Position numbers and translations under genes: made by a program. Positions 3,478-39,219 of a stretch of DNA of 49,186 nucleotides are shown piece after piece (the first letter of the stretch is position 1; each line of letters opens with the position of its first letter). The notes beneath the pieces were generated by a model. It searched no databases. It was not told the origin of the DNA and saw nothing but the letters and a program-made list of their open reading frames with translations. The stretch is from contig CAIJXH010000017.1 of assembly GCA_903824595.1 (NCBI GenBank), positions 1 through 49,186 of the forward strand, given 5' to 3'. This DNA is from an uncultured bacterium (lineage in GTDB: Bacteria; Patescibacteriota; Minisyncoccia; Phycocordibacterales; UBA2100).

Positions 3478-3639
3478 ATGCAATGGCTTGTCACTGGTCT
3501 GTTTGCGATACCGATCTCCATCGGCGTGTTCGCGGGAGCGATGCCGCTGCTGTATCATGCTGTGCTACAAGGTAGCAACAGTCAGCAAGTCGCGGCGGCT
3601 TCGGAATTCAAAAATCCTGCGGGGGGGGGCGACTCATAG
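3478..3639 (+). CDS. Short signal-anchor ORF, likely the N-terminus of the downstream surface protein, separated by a frameshift at G9
   Basis: MQWLVTGLFAIPISIGVFAGAMPLLYHAVLQGSNSQQVAAASEFKNPAGGGDS*; stop lies just past the G9 tract at 3621-3629. Confidence 0.6.
   Translation: MQWLVTGLFAIPISIGVFAGAMPLLYHAVLQGSNSQQVAAASEFKNPAGGGDS
3621..3629. repeat. Poly(G)9 homopolymer tract at reading-frame junction
   Basis: ctgc ggggggggg cgactcatag. Confidence 0.95.
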
Positions 3640-5657
3640 CATCTTCGTCTCCTGAAAAGAAATCACTCGCATTCACTTCGGCAACGACAACTCCCAAAAG
3701 CGGAGGACAGACCATTATCAACCAGTATCCCGTCATCGAACGCGTGGAACACCTCAACACCATCACCACGCAAAGCGGCGTTACGCCATCCGACCTCAAC
3801 GCGCTTGAGAACAAGATGCGCTCGCTCATCTCTCTCCAATCCTCCCAACAAGGTGCGCAGACCGCCGCCGTCTCTCAAATGGTCTCCCAATCCCAGAGAA
3901 TAGACAACTTGAGCAATACCACTATCCAAAATCCCACAATCACCGGCGGCTCCATCACGGCCGCTTCTATCGCGGGCACCATCGTCAATGCGATCAACAC
4001 CGACGCCGCGACCATCGACAATCTCACGTCCAACACCGTCACCGCCAGCAATGGCACCTTCACCTACGCCACGACCACGAATCTCGTCGCAACGAATGCA
4101 ACGACCACCAACCTCTCTGCGGTATACGCGTCTTCCGTCCTCTCCACAATCGGCACCCTGAATCTCACCAACGCACTCACACCAGGGAACGGCGGCACCG
4201 GCACCTCGACCCCCGCCTCCCTCGGCAACCTCCTCTCCTGGAACGGCACCACCTACCAAGGCGTCGCCACCTCCTCACTCTTCAACACCGCCAACACCAG
4301 CGTCTCCGGCCTCCTCTCTGCCACCGACTGGAACACCTTCAATGGGAAGCAAGCTGCCGGCTCCTACCTCACCGCTCTCACCGGCGATATCACTGCGACC
4401 GGACCTGGATCAGCGGTAGCAACCTTGGCGATGAACGTCTCCCACTGGTGGACTGCTCTGCAAAACTTCGGCAACGCCAGCACCTCCATGCTCACTGCCA
4501 CCAGTACCGTGTGGTTCACGTCGCTCGCCACTCCCACCGGCACCTTTTTGGCGGTAGATACTACAGGGAAGGTGATCGCGACCACCACGCCCGCCAACTA
4601 CTTCACCAATAGCGGCTCCAACACCTACCTCTCTACTGGCATCAATCTCCTCGTCGGCACCACCACGTCGCTCGCTCCCTTAACGATCTTCAAGACAGCC
4701 GCCTCCGCGCAAGAGCGCATCTCGTACGATGCCACCCGCTATGCCGAGCTCTATACCGACGCCTCCGGCGCGCTCAATCTCAGCGCGACCGGTGCCATCC
4801 TCAACATGCTCAACGGCAACATGTATCTCTGCGACGGCGGCGCGTGCCCGACCACGCCCGTGCAGGGCTACCCGACGTTCGCGAGCCAGGGCAATCTCGT
4901 CTTGGGCAATGCGCTCTATACAAATGCAGTAAATCCGGCTACCTGTCCCTCTGGCATGATTCCCGTACCCGCCTCGCCCGCAAATGGTCAGCAGGGATTC
5001 TGCGTGGACAAATACGAAGCGCAATCATCAAGCGGCAATGAGGTATCGGTGCAAGGCGGCTCGCCGTGGGTATCCATCGCGCAGACCAGCGCGAGAGCCG
5101 AATGCAAGCGCGCCGGCAAGCACCTCATCACGGAGAAAGAGTGGCAGGCGATTGCAAATGATGTCGAGAATGTCGGGTTCAACTGGAACGGCGGTGTCGT
5201 CGGCACCAACCAAATGAGCGACGGTCATTCCGACAACAGCCCCTCATCCGCGCTCGCGACCGCCGCCGACTCCTCGCCCTGCTCTGACACCGGCCAGACC
5301 TGCGACCTTAGTACATGGAACAGCCAACGTCGCGTGTACAAATTATCAAATGGGCAATACATCTGGGACTTCGGCGGCAATGTCTGGGAATGGGTGGATC
5401 AGACGGTTACCAATGACTATCCAATCGTCAACAGCGCGGCGGCTGGATGGCAGGCATGCTCCACAAGCGGCGACGGCGTCTGCGGCAACACGCGCACCAC
5501 CAACGACCAATGGTACCGAGGCGGTTTTGCCACCATTGCGGGCTTCATCCGCGGCGGCAATTGGAACGATGGCGCGATCGATGGTGCGTTCGCGCTGGGT
5601 CTGAACAATTCGCCGTCCGCTGTGGGCACGTCCCTTGGGTTTCGGTGCTCTCGTTGA
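3630..5657 (+). CDS. Large surface protein with C-terminal FGE-sulfatase/C-type-lectin-like domain (putative DGR target)
   Basis: Frame open from the G-tract but no ATG/GTG/TTG until GTG 3744. C-terminal GFCVDKYEAQ...GGNVWEWVDQ...FIRGGNWNDGAIDGAFALGLNNSPSAVGTSLGFRCSR. Confidence 0.75.
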   Translation, partial: RLIASSSPEKKSLAFTSATTTPKSGGQTIINQYPVIERVEHLNTITTQSGVTPSDLNALENKMRSLISLQSSQQGAQTAAVSQMVSQSQRIDNLSNTTIQNPTITGGSITAASIAGTIVNAINTDAATIDNLTSNTVTASNGTFTYATTTNLVATNATTTNLSAVYASSVLSTIGTLNLTNALTPGNGGTGTSTPASLGNLLSWNGTTYQGVATSSLFNTANTSVSGLLSATDWNTFNGKQAAGSYLTALTGDITATGPGSAVATLAMNVSHWWTALQNFGNASTSMLTATSTVWFTSLATPTGTFLAVDTTGKVIATTTPANYFTNSGSNTYLSTGINLLVGTTTSLAPLTIFKTAASAQERISYDATRYAELYTDASGALNLSATGAILNMLNGNMYLCDGGACPTTPVQGYPTFASQGNLVLGNALYTNAVNPATCPSGMIPVPASPANGQQGFCVDKYEAQSSSGNEVSVQGGSPWVSIAQTSARAECKRAGKHLITEKEWQAIANDVENVGFNWNGGVVGTNQMSDGHSDNSPSSALATAADSSPCSDTGQTCDLSTWNSQRRVYKLSNGQYIWDFGGNVWEWVDQTVTNDYPIVNSAAAGWQACSTSGDGVCGNTRTTNDQWYRGGFATIAGFIRGGNWNDGAIDGAFALGLNNSPSAVGTSLGFRCSR
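5551..5657 (+). other. Putative DGR variable region (VR)
   Basis: RGGNWN..GA..GAFAL.LNNSPS....LGFRC layout; candidate variable codons (AAT AAC GAT ATC GAT GGT TTC GGT AAC AAT TCC GCT GGC TCC) all end in T/C, as expected from AAY template codons. Confidence 0.7.
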
Positions 5658-5730: not shown

Positions 5731-5916
5731 ATGTTGCACGACCTCCAAATCTTCCAGAAATCGTATACATTCCTCTTCTGGATAAAACAGGTTACGCAAA
5801 AATTCGCCAAGGCGCACAAGTACGCGCTCGCCACGCGGATTCTTTCTGTCTTCGGCGATCTATGGAAAGTCGGCTCGGGCTTCCGCCCGGTAGCATTGCG
5901 TGAATATTTGACGTGA
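5731..5916 (+). pseudogene. Truncated Avd-like / four-helix-bundle (S23-like) protein
   Basis: MLHDLQIFQKSYTFLFWIKQVTQKFAKAHKYALATRI resembles the N-terminus of Avd-like proteins, then non-family sequence and stop at 61 aa. Confidence 0.6.
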
Positions 5917-5930
5917 TATAATCGGATGGT

Positions 5931-6296
5931 ATGAAAGAGAAAAGCAAACAGAAAACGGAGGTGCAGGAGTTGTTTGAGTTTATCCGCGAGCACATGCCGC
6001 TGAAAAGCGAGGTGGCGATGAAAGACGATCTTGCACGATTTGCTACGAAAGATGATCTTGTCGCCATAAAAAGCGATATTGTTGCCATGAAAAGCGATAT
6101 TGTTGCCATGAAAAGCGATCTCACTGAACAAATAGAGGACGTCAAACGATTTGTTACTGACAAACTCGAGCAGAACAAAGAAGAGATCATTGACCGTCTC
6201 ACACCGACCGAAAAAGCGGTAGACAAGGATGTCGTCATGGTCTTGGATCACGAACGCCGCATCCGCATTATCGAAAAACAGTATGCGCGGGCCTAA
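5931..6296 (+). CDS. Coiled-coil hypothetical protein
   Basis: KDDL...KSDIVAMKSDIVAMKSDL heptad-type sequence. Confidence 0.7.
   Translation: MKEKSKQKTEVQELFEFIREHMPLKSEVAMKDDLARFATKDDLVAIKSDIVAMKSDIVAMKSDLTEQIEDVKRFVTDKLEQNKEEIIDRLTPTEKAVDKDVVMVLDHERRIRIIEKQYARA
6063..6125 (+). repeat. Tandem 21-bp repeat, three units, encoding heptads
   Basis: gccataaaaagcgatattgtt / gccatgaaaagcgatattgtt / gccatgaaaagcgatctcact. Confidence 0.9.
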
Positions 6297-6308: not shown

Positions 6309-7115
6309 ATGAAGAGCGAACTTATTAAACGAGCCGTTCACTTCCTCGCCTACAACAACGCGACGGTCGTCGCGCTGGGATTGGTGCTCATCGGCGGGTC
6401 GGCGTTTGCCGCGACGACTGCGTTTACGCCGGAGAACATTCCGCCGGTACCGTCCGTTTTCTCTGCGATTGCTTCCGCGTCGGAGCCGATGGACGCGAGC
6501 ATCCTACTTTCCGCCGACCTTGCCGCGTTTGATTTCGGGACGAAGATCACCGGCGTTTCGGAAACCGACGCGCAGTATGTCGTGAATTATTCTTTGCAAA
6601 CGCTCGCACCAGAAGATGGTGCATGGCGAGGAAGTGAGCGCGATGGCAGTTTCTCCGTCGGGAAAGACGCACTCGGCGATGGTGGGCTTGCTGGATACGC
6701 GCGAGAGAAACTACTGGACATCGAAAACGGCGAGCGTGCATACCTCGCGAGAGCGAAAGAAGCGGAGCAGAAGATCGCCGACGAGCGATCATCTCGTCCG
6801 GCAAATGCTTTCGCTGGTCTCGTCGGACTTTCGCTTGATCAGATTCCCGAGCCGGTCGTCGTGAAGCCCATGCCGGAGCCGGTGCCCGATGTCGCGCTTC
6901 CAATCTCCGCGCCTTCGGTTGTCATGCCAGAGTCGACTTCCGAGTCCGTTTCTGTCGAAACGACGCCCTCCGCGCTTTCGTCTACAGAAGGCGCCGCGAC
7001 GACCACACAGGATATTATTTCTGTCGCGACAACCTCGCCTTCCGATTCAGAAACTGGTTCGTCAGATGCTACGAGTTCGACTCCGCCCGAAGGCGCGACA
7101 TCCGTCACGCTGTAA
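6309..7115 (+). CDS. Hypothetical membrane-anchored/secreted protein with Pro/Ser/Thr-rich tail
   Basis: N-terminal hydrophobic segment VVALGLVLIGGSAFAATTAF, low-complexity C-terminus. Confidence 0.65.
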   Translation: MKSELIKRAVHFLAYNNATVVALGLVLIGGSAFAATTAFTPENIPPVPSVFSAIASASEPMDASILLSADLAAFDFGTKITGVSETDAQYVVNYSLQTLAPEDGAWRGSERDGSFSVGKDALGDGGLAGYAREKLLDIENGERAYLARAKEAEQKIADERSSRPANAFAGLVGLSLDQIPEPVVVKPMPEPVPDVALPISAPSVVMPESTSESVSVETTPSALSSTEGAATTTQDIISVATTSPSDSETGSSDATSSTPPEGATSVTL

Positions 7116-8937: not shown

Positions 8938-10254
8938 ATGGCTCAAAAGAGATTTGCTGCGATTTTTGTCCTGCTTGTTGGAGTGGGTGTGGGGTGGTTT
9001 GTATATAGCTCGCAAATTCACGCGACGCGCCCTTTCAAGCTCGGACTCGATCTCTCTGGGGGCACGCAGCTTGTGTATCGTGCCAAAGTGGATGCGATCA
9101 AGTCGTCGGACATTGAGGGTTCGATGGCATCTTTGCGCGATACGATCGAACGCCGAGTCAATCTTTTCGGAGTATCGGAACCAATCGTGCAGACGGAGCA
9201 GGCGAGCGCGCTCGGTGGCAATGAACATCGTCTCATCGTGGAGCTCCCCGGCGTGACAGACACGGAGAAAGCGATCGAGCTGATCGGTCAGACGCCTGTT
9301 CTTGAATTTCGTATGCTCAAGCCGAATGCTTCTGTGCCGAGCGATTTTTCCGCATCGAGCATCAGTGCTGCGTTTGAAGCCCCTGCGATCACAGGCAAGA
9401 ATCTGAAGAGTGCCGAGCTTCAATTTCAGGGCGGTATGGGACGTCTCACGCAGCCAGTGGTCGTACTGCATTTTGATTCCTCGGGTTCTTCCGCATTTGC
9501 GCTACTTACCAAGCAGAATGTGGGTCGCGTATTTGGTATTTTTCTCGATGGGCAACCGATCTCTACGCCCGTTATTCGAGAAGAGATTCCCGATGGGACT
9601 GCGGTTATTTCTGGTGGTTTTTCTGTCGAAGATGCAAAGACTCTTTCTCGCAATCTCAATTACGGCGCATTGCCTGTGCCGATCGAGCTTATTTCTACGC
9701 AGACGGTCTCTGGAACATTGGGAGATAAAGCGGTGCGCGACGGTGTGATGGCGGGCTTGTGGGGCGTGGGTGTCGTGGGGTTTTTCATGATGCTCTGGTA
9801 TCGCGTACCAGGAGTGCTCGCGGTGGTCGCTCTTGCGATGTATGTCGTCATGGTTCTTGCGTTGTTCAAACTTATCCCCGTCACGCTCACCGCCGCTGGT
9901 ATTGCCGCTTTTATTCTCTCTGTTGGTATGGCAGTGGATGCAAACATTCTTATTTTCGAGCGCGTGAAAGAAGAACGTCGCTCGGGTAAGGATATGGAGG
10001 TGGCTATTCAAGATGGTTTTGCGCGTGCATGGCCATCTATCCGCGACAGCAACATCTCTTCGCTCATCACGGCAACGATCCTCTTCTGGTTTGGTTCGTC
10101 GCTTATCAAAGGATTCGCGCTCGTCTTCGGGCTCGGTGTGATTATTTCGATGATCACGGCGATTTCGATTTCACGCACGTTTCTCTTGGCGCTCGGCGTC
10201 GGAGGAAAAAATGCGTTTACGCGATTTTTGCTCGGATCGGGCATCTCACACTAA
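8938..10254 (+). CDS. secD: Protein translocase subunit SecD
   Basis: FKLGLDLSGGTQLVYRA; LNYGALPVPIEL; GMAVDANILIFERVKEE. Confidence 0.95.
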   Translation: MAQKRFAAIFVLLVGVGVGWFVYSSQIHATRPFKLGLDLSGGTQLVYRAKVDAIKSSDIEGSMASLRDTIERRVNLFGVSEPIVQTEQASALGGNEHRLIVELPGVTDTEKAIELIGQTPVLEFRMLKPNASVPSDFSASSISAAFEAPAITGKNLKSAELQFQGGMGRLTQPVVVLHFDSSGSSAFALLTKQNVGRVFGIFLDGQPISTPVIREEIPDGTAVISGGFSVEDAKTLSRNLNYGALPVPIELISTQTVSGTLGDKAVRDGVMAGLWGVGVVGFFMMLWYRVPGVLAVVALAMYVVMVLALFKLIPVTLTAAGIAAFILSVGMAVDANILIFERVKEERRSGKDMEVAIQDGFARAWPSIRDSNISSLITATILFWFGSSLIKGFALVFGLGVIISMITAISISRTFLLALGVGGKNAFTRFLLGSGISH

Positions 10255-20404: not shown

Positions 20405-20518
20405 GGCTTGTAGGGGCTGTGTATAACTCCTTGCGTGAAACGCACGGGTCGCTACAATACGCTAGGTAACAGTCGTATATTATTTATTTTTATTTAGCCT
20501 CACGGCACAATCATAGCT

Positions 20519-20992
20519 ATGCATACAAAAAGCTCCCGCGGTTTCACCCTGATCGAACTCTTGGTGGTGATCGCCATTATCGGTATTCTTTCGTCAGTCG
20601 TTTTGGCTTCGCTCAATAGCGCCCGCTTGAAGGGACGTGATGCAGCGATCAAGGGAGCACTCAATTCTGCTCGCAGCCAAGCAGAACTGATCGCATCAAA
20701 CAACGGCGCATATTCGTCGGCTATTTGTACCGATACGACGATGACAGGCATCATTACCAATGCGAAGTCAAACTCCACTGCAACAGCAGCGGCAGCGGCT
20801 ATAAATACTACCATAGGTACAGCAGGATCGACTAACACCGCAACGTGTCATTCCGACGCCAATGGTTGGGGTATTGAAGTGCCGCTTCCGAGTGTTTCTG
20901 CAGGATCTACGTTCTTCTGTGTTGATTCAAAAGGATACTCTGGTGTTTTGGCTGCGACGTCTCTTGGAGCAAACGACGACGATTGTAACTAA
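20519..20992 (+). CDS. Type IV pilin, copy 1
   Basis: [33 protein letters not shown] class III leader. Confidence 0.95.
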   Translation: MHTKSSRGFTLIELLVVIAIIGILSSVVLASLNSARLKGRDAAIKGALNSARSQAELIASNNGAYSSAICTDTTMTGIITNAKSNSTATAAAAAINTTIGTAGSTNTATCHSDANGWGIEVPLPSVSAGSTFFCVDSKGYSGVLAATSLGANDDDCN

Positions 20993-21007
20993 CGTCTAGT
21001 TTATGTT

Positions 21008-21041
21008 GAAAAACACAGCTTCATACGAGGCTGTGTTTTTC
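21008..21041. terminator. Intrinsic terminator downstream of pilin 1
   Basis: GAAAAACACAGC...GCTGTGTTTTTC. Confidence 0.8.
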
Positions 21042-21144
21042 GTTATCATAAAGAGTATTCACAGTCCATACTTGTTACGGTAACTAGATGCACGTATAAT
21101 TCTACCTATTAGATGTTGTTTTAAAATTTCACTCGCAAAATTGT

Positions 21145-21612
21145 ATGCATACAAAAAGCTCCCGCGGTTTCACCCTGATCGAACTCTTGGTGGTGATCGC
21201 CATTATCGGTATCCTCTCATCGGTCGTCTTGGCGTCGCTCAACAGCGCCCGCTTGAAGGGACGTGATGCAGCGATCAAGCGCTCTCTCAGCTCAGCTCGC
21301 GGCCAAGCAGAATTACTGGCATCAAACAATGGCGCATATTCGTCGGCTATTTGTACTGATGCGACACTTGTTGGTATTCTCAACAGTGCGAAATCAAATT
21401 CTGATGCAACTACTGCAGGGGCAGCAATCAATACGAGTGCGGCAGGAGGAGCGGGCAAGCTGACGTGTCATGCTGATGCGAATGGCTGGGCGATTGATGT
21501 CCCTCTGGTGAATGTGAGCGGTACGTTCTTCTGTGTTGATTCTCTTGGGAATGCGACGACTACCGTTGGATCGTTCCTCGCTTCCTCCGCTACTGACGAA
21601 GATTGCAAATAG
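21145..21612 (+). CDS. Type IV pilin, copy 2
   Basis: Same N-terminus as copy 1; conserved [25 protein letters not shown]. Confidence 0.95.
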
Positions 21613-21720
21613 CGTCTGATGATTGCTATCCACTTCTGGAAAATTGGACGCTTGTGCACGGTGGCTCTAGCAGTACAATGAATGACAGGTTATCAACATT
21701 ATTTGTAATATACATCGTCT

Positions 21721-22185
21721 ATGCATACAAAAAGCTCCCGCGGTTTCACCCTGATCGAACTCTTGGTGGTGATCGCCATTATCGGTATCTTGTCATCAGT
21801 CGTCTTGGCGTCGCTCAACGTGGCTCGCAAAAAAGGACGCGACGCTCGTCGCATTGCCGACATCAGTCAAATCAAGACCGCTCTTGAGCTGTACTACGAC
21901 GCAAACAGTCAATATCCTACGACCCTTGCGCCGCTTACGGCAAGTAATTACATCCAGGTAGTGCCAACCGATCCGAGCACAAATACCGCATACTCATATG
22001 CTGCATTGCAGGGTGGTGCTTCGTCGGTGGCGACTTGTGGAGGATATCACTTGGGTGCAACTCTCGAAGACTCGAGTAATTCCGCGCTCACCAACGATAT
22101 CGACGCACCGGCAAGCGATACAGTGTGCACAAACGGCGGCACCAACTTCTCGGGTACCGATCCTGTGTATGACGTAAAGCAGTAG
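21721..22185 (+). CDS. Type IV pilin, copy 3 (GspG-like body)
   Basis: Same N-terminus, different body: RKKGRDARRIADISQIKTALELYYDANSQYPTTLAPL. Confidence 0.95.
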   Translation: MHTKSSRGFTLIELLVVIAIIGILSSVVLASLNVARKKGRDARRIADISQIKTALELYYDANSQYPTTLAPLTASNYIQVVPTDPSTNTAYSYAALQGGASSVATCGGYHLGATLEDSSNSALTNDIDAPASDTVCTNGGTNFSGTDPVYDVKQ

Positions 22186-33931: not shown

Positions 33932-35272
33932 ATGACAACACTGTGGAATACATCAGGTAAAAAAGTCGACAAAACGGTGCAGGCGTACACCGTCGGCACC
34001 GATTATGTGTTTGATATGCATTTGCTGCCGTTTGATATCGACGGGAGCGTTGCGCATGCAAGAGGATTGCAGAAAATCGGCATTCTCACCGCGAAGGAAT
34101 TGAAAGACGTCCTTCGCGCATTTGCAGAGCTTCGCAAGGATTTCACTCTCGGGCGCATCACGATTACACCTGAAGACGAGGATTGTCATACGGTAATCGA
34201 GCACTACCTCGTGGAAAAACTCGGCGATGTGGGCAAGAAAATCCACACGGGCAGGAGCCGCAACGATCAGGTGCTCACGGCGGTGCGGTTGTACATGAAG
34301 CATCACGTTGCGCTAGTCCGCACGAAGTGTCTCGATCTTGCCGACTCGTGCGTGGAAAAAGCCGATGCGTACCAACATATCCCCATGCCGGGCTACTCGC
34401 ACACGCAGCAGGCAATGCTTTCGAGTGTGGGGCATTATATGGCGAGCATTGCGGAGAGTCTGCTCGACGACGAGTCGTTCCTCGCGAGCGTTGCCGATCA
34501 TATCGACAAAAGTCCGCTCGGCTCTGCCGCCGGATTTGGCAGCGCGATCCCGCTTGATCGTGCATACACGGCGCGCGAGCTTGGGTTTGCCGCGGTGCAG
34601 ATCAATTCACTCTACTGTCAGACGTCGCGCGGCAAATTTGAAAGCGCGGTCATGGAAGGGCTGTCGCAAGTGTCAGCGACGCTCGCGCGTTTGGCTAATG
34701 ATCTCGTGTGGTTTACCTCGCAAGAGTTTGCGTTCTTTGACGCTGACGACGCGGTGGTGACAGGCTCGAGCATTATGCCGCAAAAACGCAACCTCGATCC
34801 TCTGGAGCTTTTGCGCGGCAATGCGGCAATTATCGCGGGCAATCAGCTGGCAATCAAAGAACTCTCGAAAAATCTTCTCTCCGGCTACAACCGCGATCTT
34901 CAGCTCATGAAAAAGCCGCTCATGGAAAGCATGATGAGTGTCGAAGACGGGCTTGAGATTGCACGAGTGGTGCTCCAACATGTGCAGCCAAACGAGAAAG
35001 AGATTCGCGCACGCATTCATCCAGGTATGTTCCTTGCCGATATTGCCAATGACATGGTGCTTTCACGCGGCGTGCCGTTCCGTGATGCGTATGCGCTTGC
35101 GAAGGGAATGGAGGCGAAAGACATGGATCTCGCCAAGAATATCCGCGAAAAGCGGAGTCTTGGCGCGCCGGGTAAGCTGGGGCTCGCGACATATCGCGCG
35201 CGCATCGCGCGCGCTCGACGCAGCATGTATGGACGACATCGTTTTGCAAAAACCTCGTCGAACATGTCGTGA
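33932..35272 (+). CDS. argH: Argininosuccinate lyase
   Basis: TGRSRNDQVLTAVRLYMK; GYSHTQQAML; LGSAAGFGSAIPLDR; GSSIMPQKRNLDPLELLRG. Confidence 0.92.
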   Translation: MTTLWNTSGKKVDKTVQAYTVGTDYVFDMHLLPFDIDGSVAHARGLQKIGILTAKELKDVLRAFAELRKDFTLGRITITPEDEDCHTVIEHYLVEKLGDVGKKIHTGRSRNDQVLTAVRLYMKHHVALVRTKCLDLADSCVEKADAYQHIPMPGYSHTQQAMLSSVGHYMASIAESLLDDESFLASVADHIDKSPLGSAAGFGSAIPLDRAYTARELGFAAVQINSLYCQTSRGKFESAVMEGLSQVSATLARLANDLVWFTSQEFAFFDADDAVVTGSSIMPQKRNLDPLELLRGNAAIIAGNQLAIKELSKNLLSGYNRDLQLMKKPLMESMMSVEDGLEIARVVLQHVQPNEKEIRARIHPGMFLADIANDMVLSRGVPFRDAYALAKGMEAKDMDLAKNIREKRSLGAPGKLGLATYRARIARARRSMYGRHRFAKTSSNMS

Positions 35273-35285
35273 GGAGATACGCGTG
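35250..35285. repeat. Copy of the right arm of the 17928-18074 element, overlapping argH stop
   Basis: AACCTCGTCGAACATGTCGTGAGGAGATACGCGTG vs 18031-18065 (differences at the first base and AGG[G/A]GAT). Confidence 0.9.
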
Positions 35286-35340
35286 TGTTTATGCACATGT
35301 CGGTCTCTTTTGTACAAGAAGTCTAGTATACTTCCATAGT

Positions 35341-38300
35341 ATGCGCGTGATGTCATATGTGTTTTCAGCGCTTTTTTGTCTGTTTGTGTGTGTTCCTGTG
35401 ATGGCGCGAGCTCAATCAACCACGACTCCACCGCAAGCGATTGTTCTTGCTACCGTAAATATTCAGAATGCCCAGATAACAAAGCAAGACGGACACGCGT
35501 TCTCAATCTCGTTCGATCTCACTAATCGAGAGGGCGTGCAACATGATGTTGATTATTCTGTCGAGCTCATTCAGGATGACAACGGACAATTTGTCGCTGA
35601 TCAGAACGTGTACCTTGCGCATCTCATATTGCAGGAACACTCATCCACTCATCAGACAATAACCTACACGGCACCAGCCTCTCTGGACGGGACGTATAGG
35701 ATGTTCATCTCAAGCAAGAACGCGAGCGGGTTTCCTTTTGGTGTGGCATATGTAAAAGATGTGACGTTAGTATCGTCGAGCGACGTGCGTATTTCTCCAC
35801 ATACATGCTATCTCACGGTCAAAGAAGACAAAAAATCAAAGCACTATATGCTCACTGAAGGAGTTGATATTGCAAAGGACGAGACAATACATCTCACGTG
35901 TGTTGCGGAAAATACGAGCGATCATAGCGTATCTATAATTCCTGAATATCAAACACGTTTTCGTTCCGAGTATGGTGATAACGTGCCTCACGTAGGTGGA
36001 AGCCAAGATCCAATAGTTCTTCCGCAACACAAGACAACACAATTCACGCTTGAGCTTCCAAAGGCAACAAAACCACAGGCGTATAGTGTGAATATTTCGT
36101 TTGGGGCATCTCATGGCATTGGTTCTATTTTGGTGCATTACGTTTTGCGGGGTGCCAGCGCCACTATTCAAAACATATCACTTGATCAAAATCGCTACGC
36201 GGCAGGAGATACTGCGCTCGTGTCATTTATGTGGACACCATCCGCTGATGGGTTTCCAGATTCTCGCGCGGGTACGAGCTCGCCAAGTGTCGTATCGTTC
36301 CAAGCGATACTCACCAACCGTTCTGGTGCTGTATGTGGTGAGCTTACACAATCGCTTCCACCAACCATGGTTGTGCACGCCCCGCTTTCCATAGCGGTGA
36401 ATTGTCTCGATCCACATCTTTCTCTCGATCTGCGTGATGTGCATGGAGTATCTCTGGCGCGAGGTGTTTTGGTGGTTCAAAGCCCTGTTCGTACGTTCTG
36501 GATATATCTCATATTCATATGTATCGTGTCGATGGTGGTATTGCTATGGTTCTTGAGAAAAAAGATGCGCGCTCGTGTCATGGCGCCCATGCTCGTCATG
36601 GGTGTGATAGTTCTGTTGCCCGGATATGCAAGGGGAGACACCGTGATGTTTCCATTTGGACAAGCTTCTGGACCGGCACACCTCGCACCCATCACGTTTA
36701 CGTTCAATCTCGATAAAAGTTCTTATACTCCAGGCAGTGCTCTCACGCTCACGTCGTATGCCGAAGGGACGTTTTGTGGCAATACCGTGTTTGAAGCATA
36801 TGCATATTTTGTGGCAAATTTACAGGGAGATTGGCGGACAATTATGAATGCGATCGTTGGTCAATGGGCTCAGCCTATTGGCGGTAATGGATGGTTCGGC
36901 ATACATTCCGAATCTGATTCAGGCTACCACACTCAAATTGGTCCTTTCTCGACGGTATTTACCGCGCCCTCGTATCCAGGCACATATCCTTTGTATATTT
37001 ATGCCGCCGGTGCTCAAGCTGATTTGAGCGGTCGATGGTTCTATGACGATCGGACCGTGGCTCTTTATTTCACTGTGACGGGCAATTCTTGCTGGTTCAA
37101 TGGAACACCAATCGCACACGGCGGATCGACGTACGCATATCCTACCGCAACGAGCGTGTGTGGCGTATCAGGACAAGTACGCGTATGCAACAATGGGGTG
37201 CTTTCTGGGTCGTATCCGTATAGTTCGTGTATTTCAAATCAAGCGCCGCTGTTCTCTATAAATTCTGTTACTGCCGATAGTGCGTGTACGATCAACAAAC
37301 CCTACTATGTTGCTCTATCCGCCACCGACCCCGAGAACGATAAGGTCAGGTATGAAATTCAATGGAATGATGGATCGCCCGTCGAATCTGTGCCAAATAT
37401 ACATAATACTCCATCAGGAATAGTGGTAACGCCATGGCTTGGAGCGTGGACAGACTCTGGATCGACATTGCCTGCCGAGTTACTTGGGTCGCAAACAAGC
37501 GTCATCGGCACCTACATATATTTGTTTGGAGGACAAGACAAGAATGGCTCGGCTATTGATGCGATATATCGCGCTCCTGTGTCAAATCCAACCTCGTGGG
37601 TCGACACGGGCGCAAAATTGCCCGCTCGTATTTTTGCGTCGCAACGCGTGATCATAGGAGATTATGTATATCTATTTGGAGGTTACAACACAGGTCCTGT
37701 TTCTTCTATTTATAGGGCACCGATATCCAATCCTCTCGCGTGGGTTGATACGGGAGCGACGTTGCCCGGAGCGCCTGTTGCGTCAGAGGCGGCAATCATA
37801 GGGGATTTTGTGTATCTTTTCGGCGGATATACTGATGATATATATCGTGCTCCTGTCTCAAACCCTCTTGCGTGGGTAAAGACAGGCGCAAAATTGCCAG
37901 GGGTCATAGGGTGGTCAAGTCTCGCTGTGGTAGGCGACTACGTCTACCTCTTTGGTGGCAACACGGGAGAACCGAGATGGACAAACGTCATCTGGCGCGC
38001 TCCTGTCTCAAACCCTCTTGCATGGACGGACACTGGTGCACATATTCCAAGTACGCTTGATTGGTCGCAAGCACAAGTTATTGGCGACTACGTGTACCTT
38101 TTTGGTGGATACACTGATGCGGGTGGCTCGCAGCATGCAATGAATACGGTGTATCGTGCTCCCGTGTCGAATCCTCTTAGCTGGGCTGATACGGGGTTGG
38201 TTCTTCCTGATGGACTCGCTGGGTCGCAGGCTGTGTCTGTGGGAGGCGCGGTATATATGCTCGGCGGATTCCAAAACAATCGCGGACGTTCAAACGTCAT

Positions 38301-39219
38301 ATACACCGCGCCTCTCAAGCAGTTCGTACCTTCAGGGACCGTGGTGAGTGTTTCTCATACGTATGCAACGAGCGTCTCTCCGATCGTGAGTATGAGCGCT
38401 ATCGATATGAACGGCATGCGGAGTAATGTGGTTACCTTGAACAGAATGATATGTGCGGTTTCTATGCCGCCAACAGTTCATGCGATCGTCGGAAGTAGCT
38501 CTGGGGGCAGTGCGTGTGTCGTCAATCAGCCCTATACGCTTACCATGCAGGCGACCGACCCCGAAGGCGACCAGCTCAAATACGAGATAGATTGGGGAGA
38601 TGGGTCCGCGCACTCTTTTGCTCCACTCTCCGGGTACGTCCCTTCTGGGACAGCTCAAACTGTTTCTCATACCTATGCTGCGTACACCGCAAGCACCATC
38701 AAAGTGCACGCCATAGATACAGGCGGCAATGTCTCTGCTGAACAAGATAGCGTGTTCTCGTGCGAATGTCCGCACGTGTTTCATTGCAATAATCAGACCA
38801 TCGAAGAAACACTATCTAATTGTAGTGTGCACAGGGGAGACACGTGCGTTGCGCCAAAATTTTGTTCGGAGGGTGCGTCAGTATGTTATGCGCCACCTTC
38901 ATTCAACCAAATCCCCAATCCAAACAACCCAACGGGCGCCAATCTGACAGGACATTTGCAAGCCATACCATCGCTTGTACGCAAGGGTTCCCCGGTCAAG
39001 CTCTATTGGAGTGTTGGCAATGTCAGTCGTTGCTCCGTATCAAGCTCTGATTCTGCGGCAGCGCATGATAGGTGGAGCGATTTCGCATCGACCAACGCGG
39101 GCGTGTCTACATCTGCCATACAAAGTCAAACCATCTACACGCTGCAGTGTTCAGGGCAAGCGGGATCGTTCACCGAAACAGCGACCGTGAATCTGGCGCC
39201 TGTAACGAGCGAAAAATAA
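35341..39219 (+). CDS. Giant surface protein with internal TM region, kelch-like repeats and Ig/PKD-like domains
   Basis: N-terminal signal; TFWIYLIFICIVSMVVLLWFLRKKMRARVMAPMLVMGVIVLLPGYARG mid-protein; repeated GDYVYLFGGY...YRAPVSNPLAWVDTGA. Confidence 0.8.
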   Translation: MRVMSYVFSALFCLFVCVPVMARAQSTTTPPQAIVLATVNIQNAQITKQDGHAFSISFDLTNREGVQHDVDYSVELIQDDNGQFVADQNVYLAHLILQEHSSTHQTITYTAPASLDGTYRMFISSKNASGFPFGVAYVKDVTLVSSSDVRISPHTCYLTVKEDKKSKHYMLTEGVDIAKDETIHLTCVAENTSDHSVSIIPEYQTRFRSEYGDNVPHVGGSQDPIVLPQHKTTQFTLELPKATKPQAYSVNISFGASHGIGSILVHYVLRGASATIQNISLDQNRYAAGDTALVSFMWTPSADGFPDSRAGTSSPSVVSFQAILTNRSGAVCGELTQSLPPTMVVHAPLSIAVNCLDPHLSLDLRDVHGVSLARGVLVVQSPVRTFWIYLIFICIVSMVVLLWFLRKKMRARVMAPMLVMGVIVLLPGYARGDTVMFPFGQASGPAHLAPITFTFNLDKSSYTPGSALTLTSYAEGTFCGNTVFEAYAYFVANLQGDWRTIMNAIVGQWAQPIGGNGWFGIHSESDSGYHTQIGPFSTVFTAPSYPGTYPLYIYAAGAQADLSGRWFYDDRTVALYFTVTGNSCWFNGTPIAHGGSTYAYPTATSVCGVSGQVRVCNNGVLSGSYPYSSCISNQAPLFSINSVTADSACTINKPYYVALSATDPENDKVRYEIQWNDGSPVESVPNIHNTPSGIVVTPWLGAWTDSGSTLPAELLGSQTSVIGTYIYLFGGQDKNGSAIDAIYRAPVSNPTSWVDTGAKLPARIFASQRVIIGDYVYLFGGYNTGPVSSIYRAPISNPLAWVDTGATLPGAPVASEAAIIGDFVYLFGGYTDDIYRAPVSNPLAWVKTGAKLPGVIGWSSLAVVGDYVYLFGGNTGEPRWTNVIWRAPVSNPLAWTDTGAHIPSTLDWSQAQVIGDYVYLFGGYTDAGGSQHAMNTVYRAPVSNPLSWADTGLVLPDGLAGSQAVSVGGAVYMLGGFQNNRGRSNVIYTAPLKQFVPSGTVVSVSHTYATSVSPIVSMSAIDMNGMRSNVVTLNRMICAVSMPPTVHAIVGSSSGGSACVVNQPYTLTMQATDPEGDQLKYEIDWGDGSAHSFAPLSGYVPSGTAQTVSHTYAAYTASTIKVHAIDTGGNVSAEQDSVFSCECPHVFHCNNQTIEETLSNCSVHRGDTCVAPKFCSEGASVCYAPPSFNQIPNPNNPTGANLTGHLQAIPSLVRKGSPVKLYWSVGNVSRCSVSSSDSAAAHDRWSDFASTNAGVSTSAIQSQTIYTLQCSGQAGSFTETATVNLAPVTSEK
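37430..38320 (+). repeat. Tandem kelch-type repeats, about six units
   Basis: Recurring VIGDYVYLFGG and APVSNPLAW(V/T)DTG; near-identical DNA such as gctcctgtctcaaaccctcttgc. Confidence 0.85.

Follow-up and report, generated by a model that had tools for sequence, protein, structure and literature searches.

The forward strand of the window (the whole 49,186-nucleotide stretch analysed here, contig C17) carries, between 3744 and 7115, a gene for a C-type-lectin-like protein, a truncated accessory gene, a coiled-coil ORF and a gene for a predicted membrane-anchored protein. The first gene (3744–5657) is open in frame from 3576, has its first listed start codon, GTG, at 3744 and ends at 5657. 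The encoded surface protein consists of a stalk-like low-complexity N-terminal part and a C-terminal FGE-sulfatase/C-type-lectin-like domain (about 4929–5654), which holds a variable region (VR) at its C terminus. The Pfam FGE-sulfatase model matched residues 430–609 marginally, scoring 23.1 bits where the cut-off is 23.3 (E = 6.6e-5), and the homologue at locus L025 scored above the cut-off, with 31.9 bits. An AlphaFold2 model built on four sequences was poor (pLDDT 37), and the fold assignment is sequence-based; a PDB sequence search with the target returned only insignificant matches of the formylglycine-enzyme type, and viral contigs searched with the target domain held only weak relatives, with at most 29% identity. 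Directly upstream of the target and in another frame lies a short ORF (3478–3640) with a hydrophobic N-terminal segment (MQWLVTGLFAIPISIGVFAGAMPLLYHAVLQ). This predicted segment (ATG at 3478), the likely anchor of the target, is out of frame with it, and the two frames meet at a run of nine G (3621–3629), the sole run of at least seven G or C in the window. The frame break may mean that the gene is broken, that the tract varies in length or that the assembly is wrong here. Further downstream on the contig, three direct repeats (126–291 nt, 84–94% identical, spacing 626 and 576) were observed at 20518–21845, in a region that by eye resembles one of type IV pilus genes, and are possibly duplicated pilin genes; a large predicted surface protein (35269–39219) has, at 37554–38195, five imperfect repeats in which Kelch-like motifs (YLFGG) occur.

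Close homologues of the target domain were few, with 83% (L024), 70% (L025) and 66% (L151, in genome G327) identity to the window; over residues 288–637 of the window protein, the alignments gave 75% to L024 and 68% to L025. Within the window's own genus, the domain was found at E <= 1e-10 in one of 52 genomes, which was the window's own. L024 comes from a Lake Ikeda genome of another family of the same order ('Candidatus Nomurabacteria', Ike-100m-41; G350) and contains a complete diversity-generating retroelement (DGR), arranged as target, avd (accessory variability determinant), template repeat (TR), reverse transcriptase (RT) and a membrane-protein gene, the last being the downstream gene common to these loci. 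Its avd matched NCBIfam DivGenRetAVD (3e-34) and its RT matched RVT_1 (1e-15). When the L024 TR (9208–9325) was compared with the L024 VR over 118 bases, changes were seen at 17 of the 23 template adenines, at 3 of the 23 T and at none of the 72 G or C positions (p = 7e-13); 17 of the 20 mismatches were thus located at A, and codons 33–38 were identical.

At the corresponding place in the window, a remnant of avd (5731–5913) starts 73 bp beyond the target stop codon. This short remnant, about 44 aa, matched NF033474 (DivGenRetAVD) at E = 5e-6 over model positions 1–40 of 104, and was 33% identical to the L024 avd over 46 aa (E 1.5e-9). The homology ends near codon 44–46 (about 5868) and is followed by an unrelated tail with a stop at 5914. 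Searching the window by tblastn with the avd and RT of L024 found only the avd N-terminus, and the remainder of avd, together with the TR and the entire RT, is missing relative to L024 at an apparent deletion scar (5869–5930, no strand assigned). A candidate TR remnant at about 5880–5895 (GGGCTTCCGCCCGG) was rejected, as its match to the end of the L024 TR was too short and it also forms a simple hairpin. The former place of the RT is occupied by a coiled-coil ORF with weak coiled-coil matches (5931–6296), followed by the predicted membrane-anchored protein (6309–7115). The latter served as a synteny marker, as it is present after all four homologous loci; the window copy is 51% identical to that of L024, 36% to L025 and 31% to L151, with a best identity of 35% in its own genus. 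The truncated avd at the former place of the core indicates that a DGR was once present and was then deleted. We therefore regard the locus, with high confidence, as a fossil DGR, in which 5547–5657 is the VR of a former target, the core was deleted and the VR was kept as its last version.

The first-pass annotation, which gave the sequence and translation of 5551–5657 correctly (the ORF ends in RGGNWNDGAIDGAFALGLNNSPSAVGTSLGFRCSR*), had read this region as the putative DGR variable region of an FGE/C-type-lectin-like target. The DGR-derived VR at the C terminus was borne out, but it belongs to no functioning DGR, as a genome search for a template repeat and an RT, whose absence the annotation had named as refuting, found neither. 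In the window genome, RVT_1 had no match and the L024 RT query had none at E <= 10; the absence of a TR rests on a genome search with the VR, which gave no hit beyond the VR's own position and a chance match of 17 bases. The accessory gene avd, which is not universal among DGRs, is represented only by the truncated remnant. The genome comprises 771 kb in 22 contigs and is estimated to be 97.6% complete. SecD, encoded 3 kb downstream on the window contig, is 73% identical to that of a congener and 56% identical to that of the L024 genome, which shows that the contig is rightly assigned to its own genome and rules out mis-binning. Elsewhere in the genus, RVT_1 matches were found in 18 of 52 genomes, and across the order the L024 RT query matched 137 of 397 genomes. 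A repeat scan tolerant of changes at A, which covered loci including L009–L023 and L035–L063, detected TR/VR pairs in 35 of 46 RT loci including L024, mostly with 0–1 non-adenine mismatches. DGRs are therefore common in the order and in some congeners, though absent in the window genome.

Continued activity of the DGR in trans, through an RT and a TR on an unassembled part of the genome that keep rewriting the VR, is improbable. Such a part could lie in the roughly 2% missing from a genome of 22 contigs, and RTs that serve targets far away from them have been described (PMC3521204, PMC4891356), but neither an RT nor a TR was found in 771 kb, and the local core is visibly deleted and avd truncated. 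In addition, no more than a few kb separate TR, VR and RT in L024 and all of the 35 paired loci, most of the scanned loci having limited flanks in which distant targets would be missed.

The fossil DGR reading was further examined in the VR itself, with the L024 TR, which comes from another family and is not the organism's own, as a proxy template. The window VR aligned with this TR without gaps. At template adenines in codon positions 1–2, the window differed at 11 of 23 sites in the VR, compared with 12 of 110 elsewhere in the domain (p = 1.5e-4), and non-A sites showed no excess (5/56 versus 31/292). With this proxy, the differences from the template are thus concentrated at adenines, and the mutated codons kept their third base, such as AAT to GGT, AAT to GCT, AAC to GGC and AAC to TCC. 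The 15 codons in 5547–5636 that match adenine codons of the L024 TR were all variable across the four homologues, compared with 6 of 24 other codons (p = 2.2e-6), and the result was unchanged when L024's own VR was omitted (p = 2.2e-6). Between the window and L024, dN/dS was 1.9 inside the VR and 0.07 outside, and the low value outside suggests that the scaffold has been constrained over the combined window and L024 branches. The conserved 3' end of the VR (5637–5657, GFRCSR and stop) corresponds to the stretch over which TR and VR do not differ in L024; its amino acids are as in L024, with third bases changed in five of six codons. The excess at A sites, the kept third bases, the variability of adenine codons and the dN/dS values together indicate past diversification of the region by a DGR, and these tests confirm that 5547–5657 is a genuine VR. 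An orphan VR can thus be recognised by borrowing the template repeat of a relative.

That this pattern arose by ordinary diversifying selection, in an FGE-like domain that was never driven by a DGR, is very improbable. A window that has no TR of its own cannot alone show adenine-templated change, and the first-pass argument that the candidate variable codons all end in C or T was dropped as non-discriminating, since C or T stands at the third position in 66% of VR codons and in 69% of the gene's remaining codons; its candidate set also omitted the G-ending VR codons (TCG, GTG, ACG, GCG). However, the differences sit on the adenine codons of the homologous TR with third bases kept, and the gene next downstream of the target is a truncated avd.

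Comparison with the other homologous loci also points to a deleted DGR. L025 (8792–9590) contains a second decayed DGR, in which avd codons 1–20 are fused to the RT from residue 77; the remaining avd codons, the TR and the N-terminal part of the RT have been lost, with breakpoints unlike those of the window. No template repeat was found within 6 kb of it, and the A-tolerant scan found no pair. In G327, the target locus (L151, reverse strand, about 765–2700 of the reverse complement) has the order target, coiled-coil ORF and downstream gene, without detectable avd, TR or RT, and no L024-type RT was found in the genome at E <= 1e-40. The coiled-coil ORF takes the place of the core in both the window and G327 and is absent there from L024. 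A complete homologous DGR thus exists in a relative (L024), and remnants of core genes persist in the window (avd) and in L025 (partial RT). As L025 keeps RT sequence absent from the window and the window keeps more of avd than L025, at least two of the losses were independent. The four loci form a small decay series (complete DGR in L024, avd and RT fragments in L025, an avd stub in the window, and none in G327) around one target domain. That the RT-less state is ancestral and L024 gained its DGR beside an existing target, as the restriction of the target to one of 52 genus genomes and the core-free order of G327 (target, coiled-coil ORF, downstream gene) could suggest, is highly unlikely, as the avd remnant of the window and the avd and RT remnants of L025 require a DGR in both ancestries.

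For the fossil DGR, a history can be proposed from the mechanism of the DGR family. In an active phase in the window lineage, an RT, with Avd, would have copied, with misincorporation at adenines, a template repeat very like that of L024; the resulting cDNA would then have replaced the 3' end of the target, altering about 15 codons on a C-type-lectin-type scaffold. A later deletion would have removed the 3' part of avd, the TR and the RT, a loss that may be irreversible. The target would have been left with its last VR version, which appears to be frozen in place, and would change further by ordinary mutation alone. The fixed protein may have remained in use, and the out-of-frame anchor counts against its current use.

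The cassette probably moved horizontally between families. Third codon positions differed between the window and L024 at 44% in the target domain, compared with 62–70% in ftsE, ftsX and pyrG. The target domain, being closer than these housekeeping genes and detected in no other member of the family at E <= 1e-10, together with a downstream gene that is more similar to that of L024 (51%) than to those of congeners (at most 35%), argues for such a transfer.

Leftover DGR target genes without RT or TR were reported in Treponema denticola isolates (PMC4891356). As in the window, their VR differs mostly at adenines from the TR of other strains, RT and TR are gone, and repeated gains and losses were inferred (PMC4891356). 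The present case differs in that it concerns a patescibacterium, that the comparison is made between families, and that a truncated avd and a partial RT mark deletions with different ends. The DiGReF survey described DGRs with inactivated RTs, which are likewise loci with lost function; in these the TR/VR pair is still intact and the RT was broken recently, whereas TR and RT are wholly absent from the window (PMC3521204). L024, whose target domain is 83% identical to the window's and whose gene order is shared, is complete with avd, TR and RT. Patescibacteria are known to have DGRs of their own, and L024 was assigned on host grounds only to the Patescibacteria-restricted clade 2 described by Roux et al. 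(2021; PMC8144416).

Targets left after DGR loss were thus already known (PMC4891356), and what the present case adds is the decay series and the test with a borrowed template. DGR surveys mostly start from the RT and therefore miss the targets of deleted DGRs. We tentatively raise the idea, which we consider doubtful at present, that this target family was repeatedly released from its DGR, with independent lineages keeping a selected VR and deleting the mutagenic core. The decay series makes it possible to test loss of the mutator after fixation of a useful binding site against simple erosion. If repeated release proved true, DGRs would serve for affinity maturation only for a time, their product being fixed afterwards.
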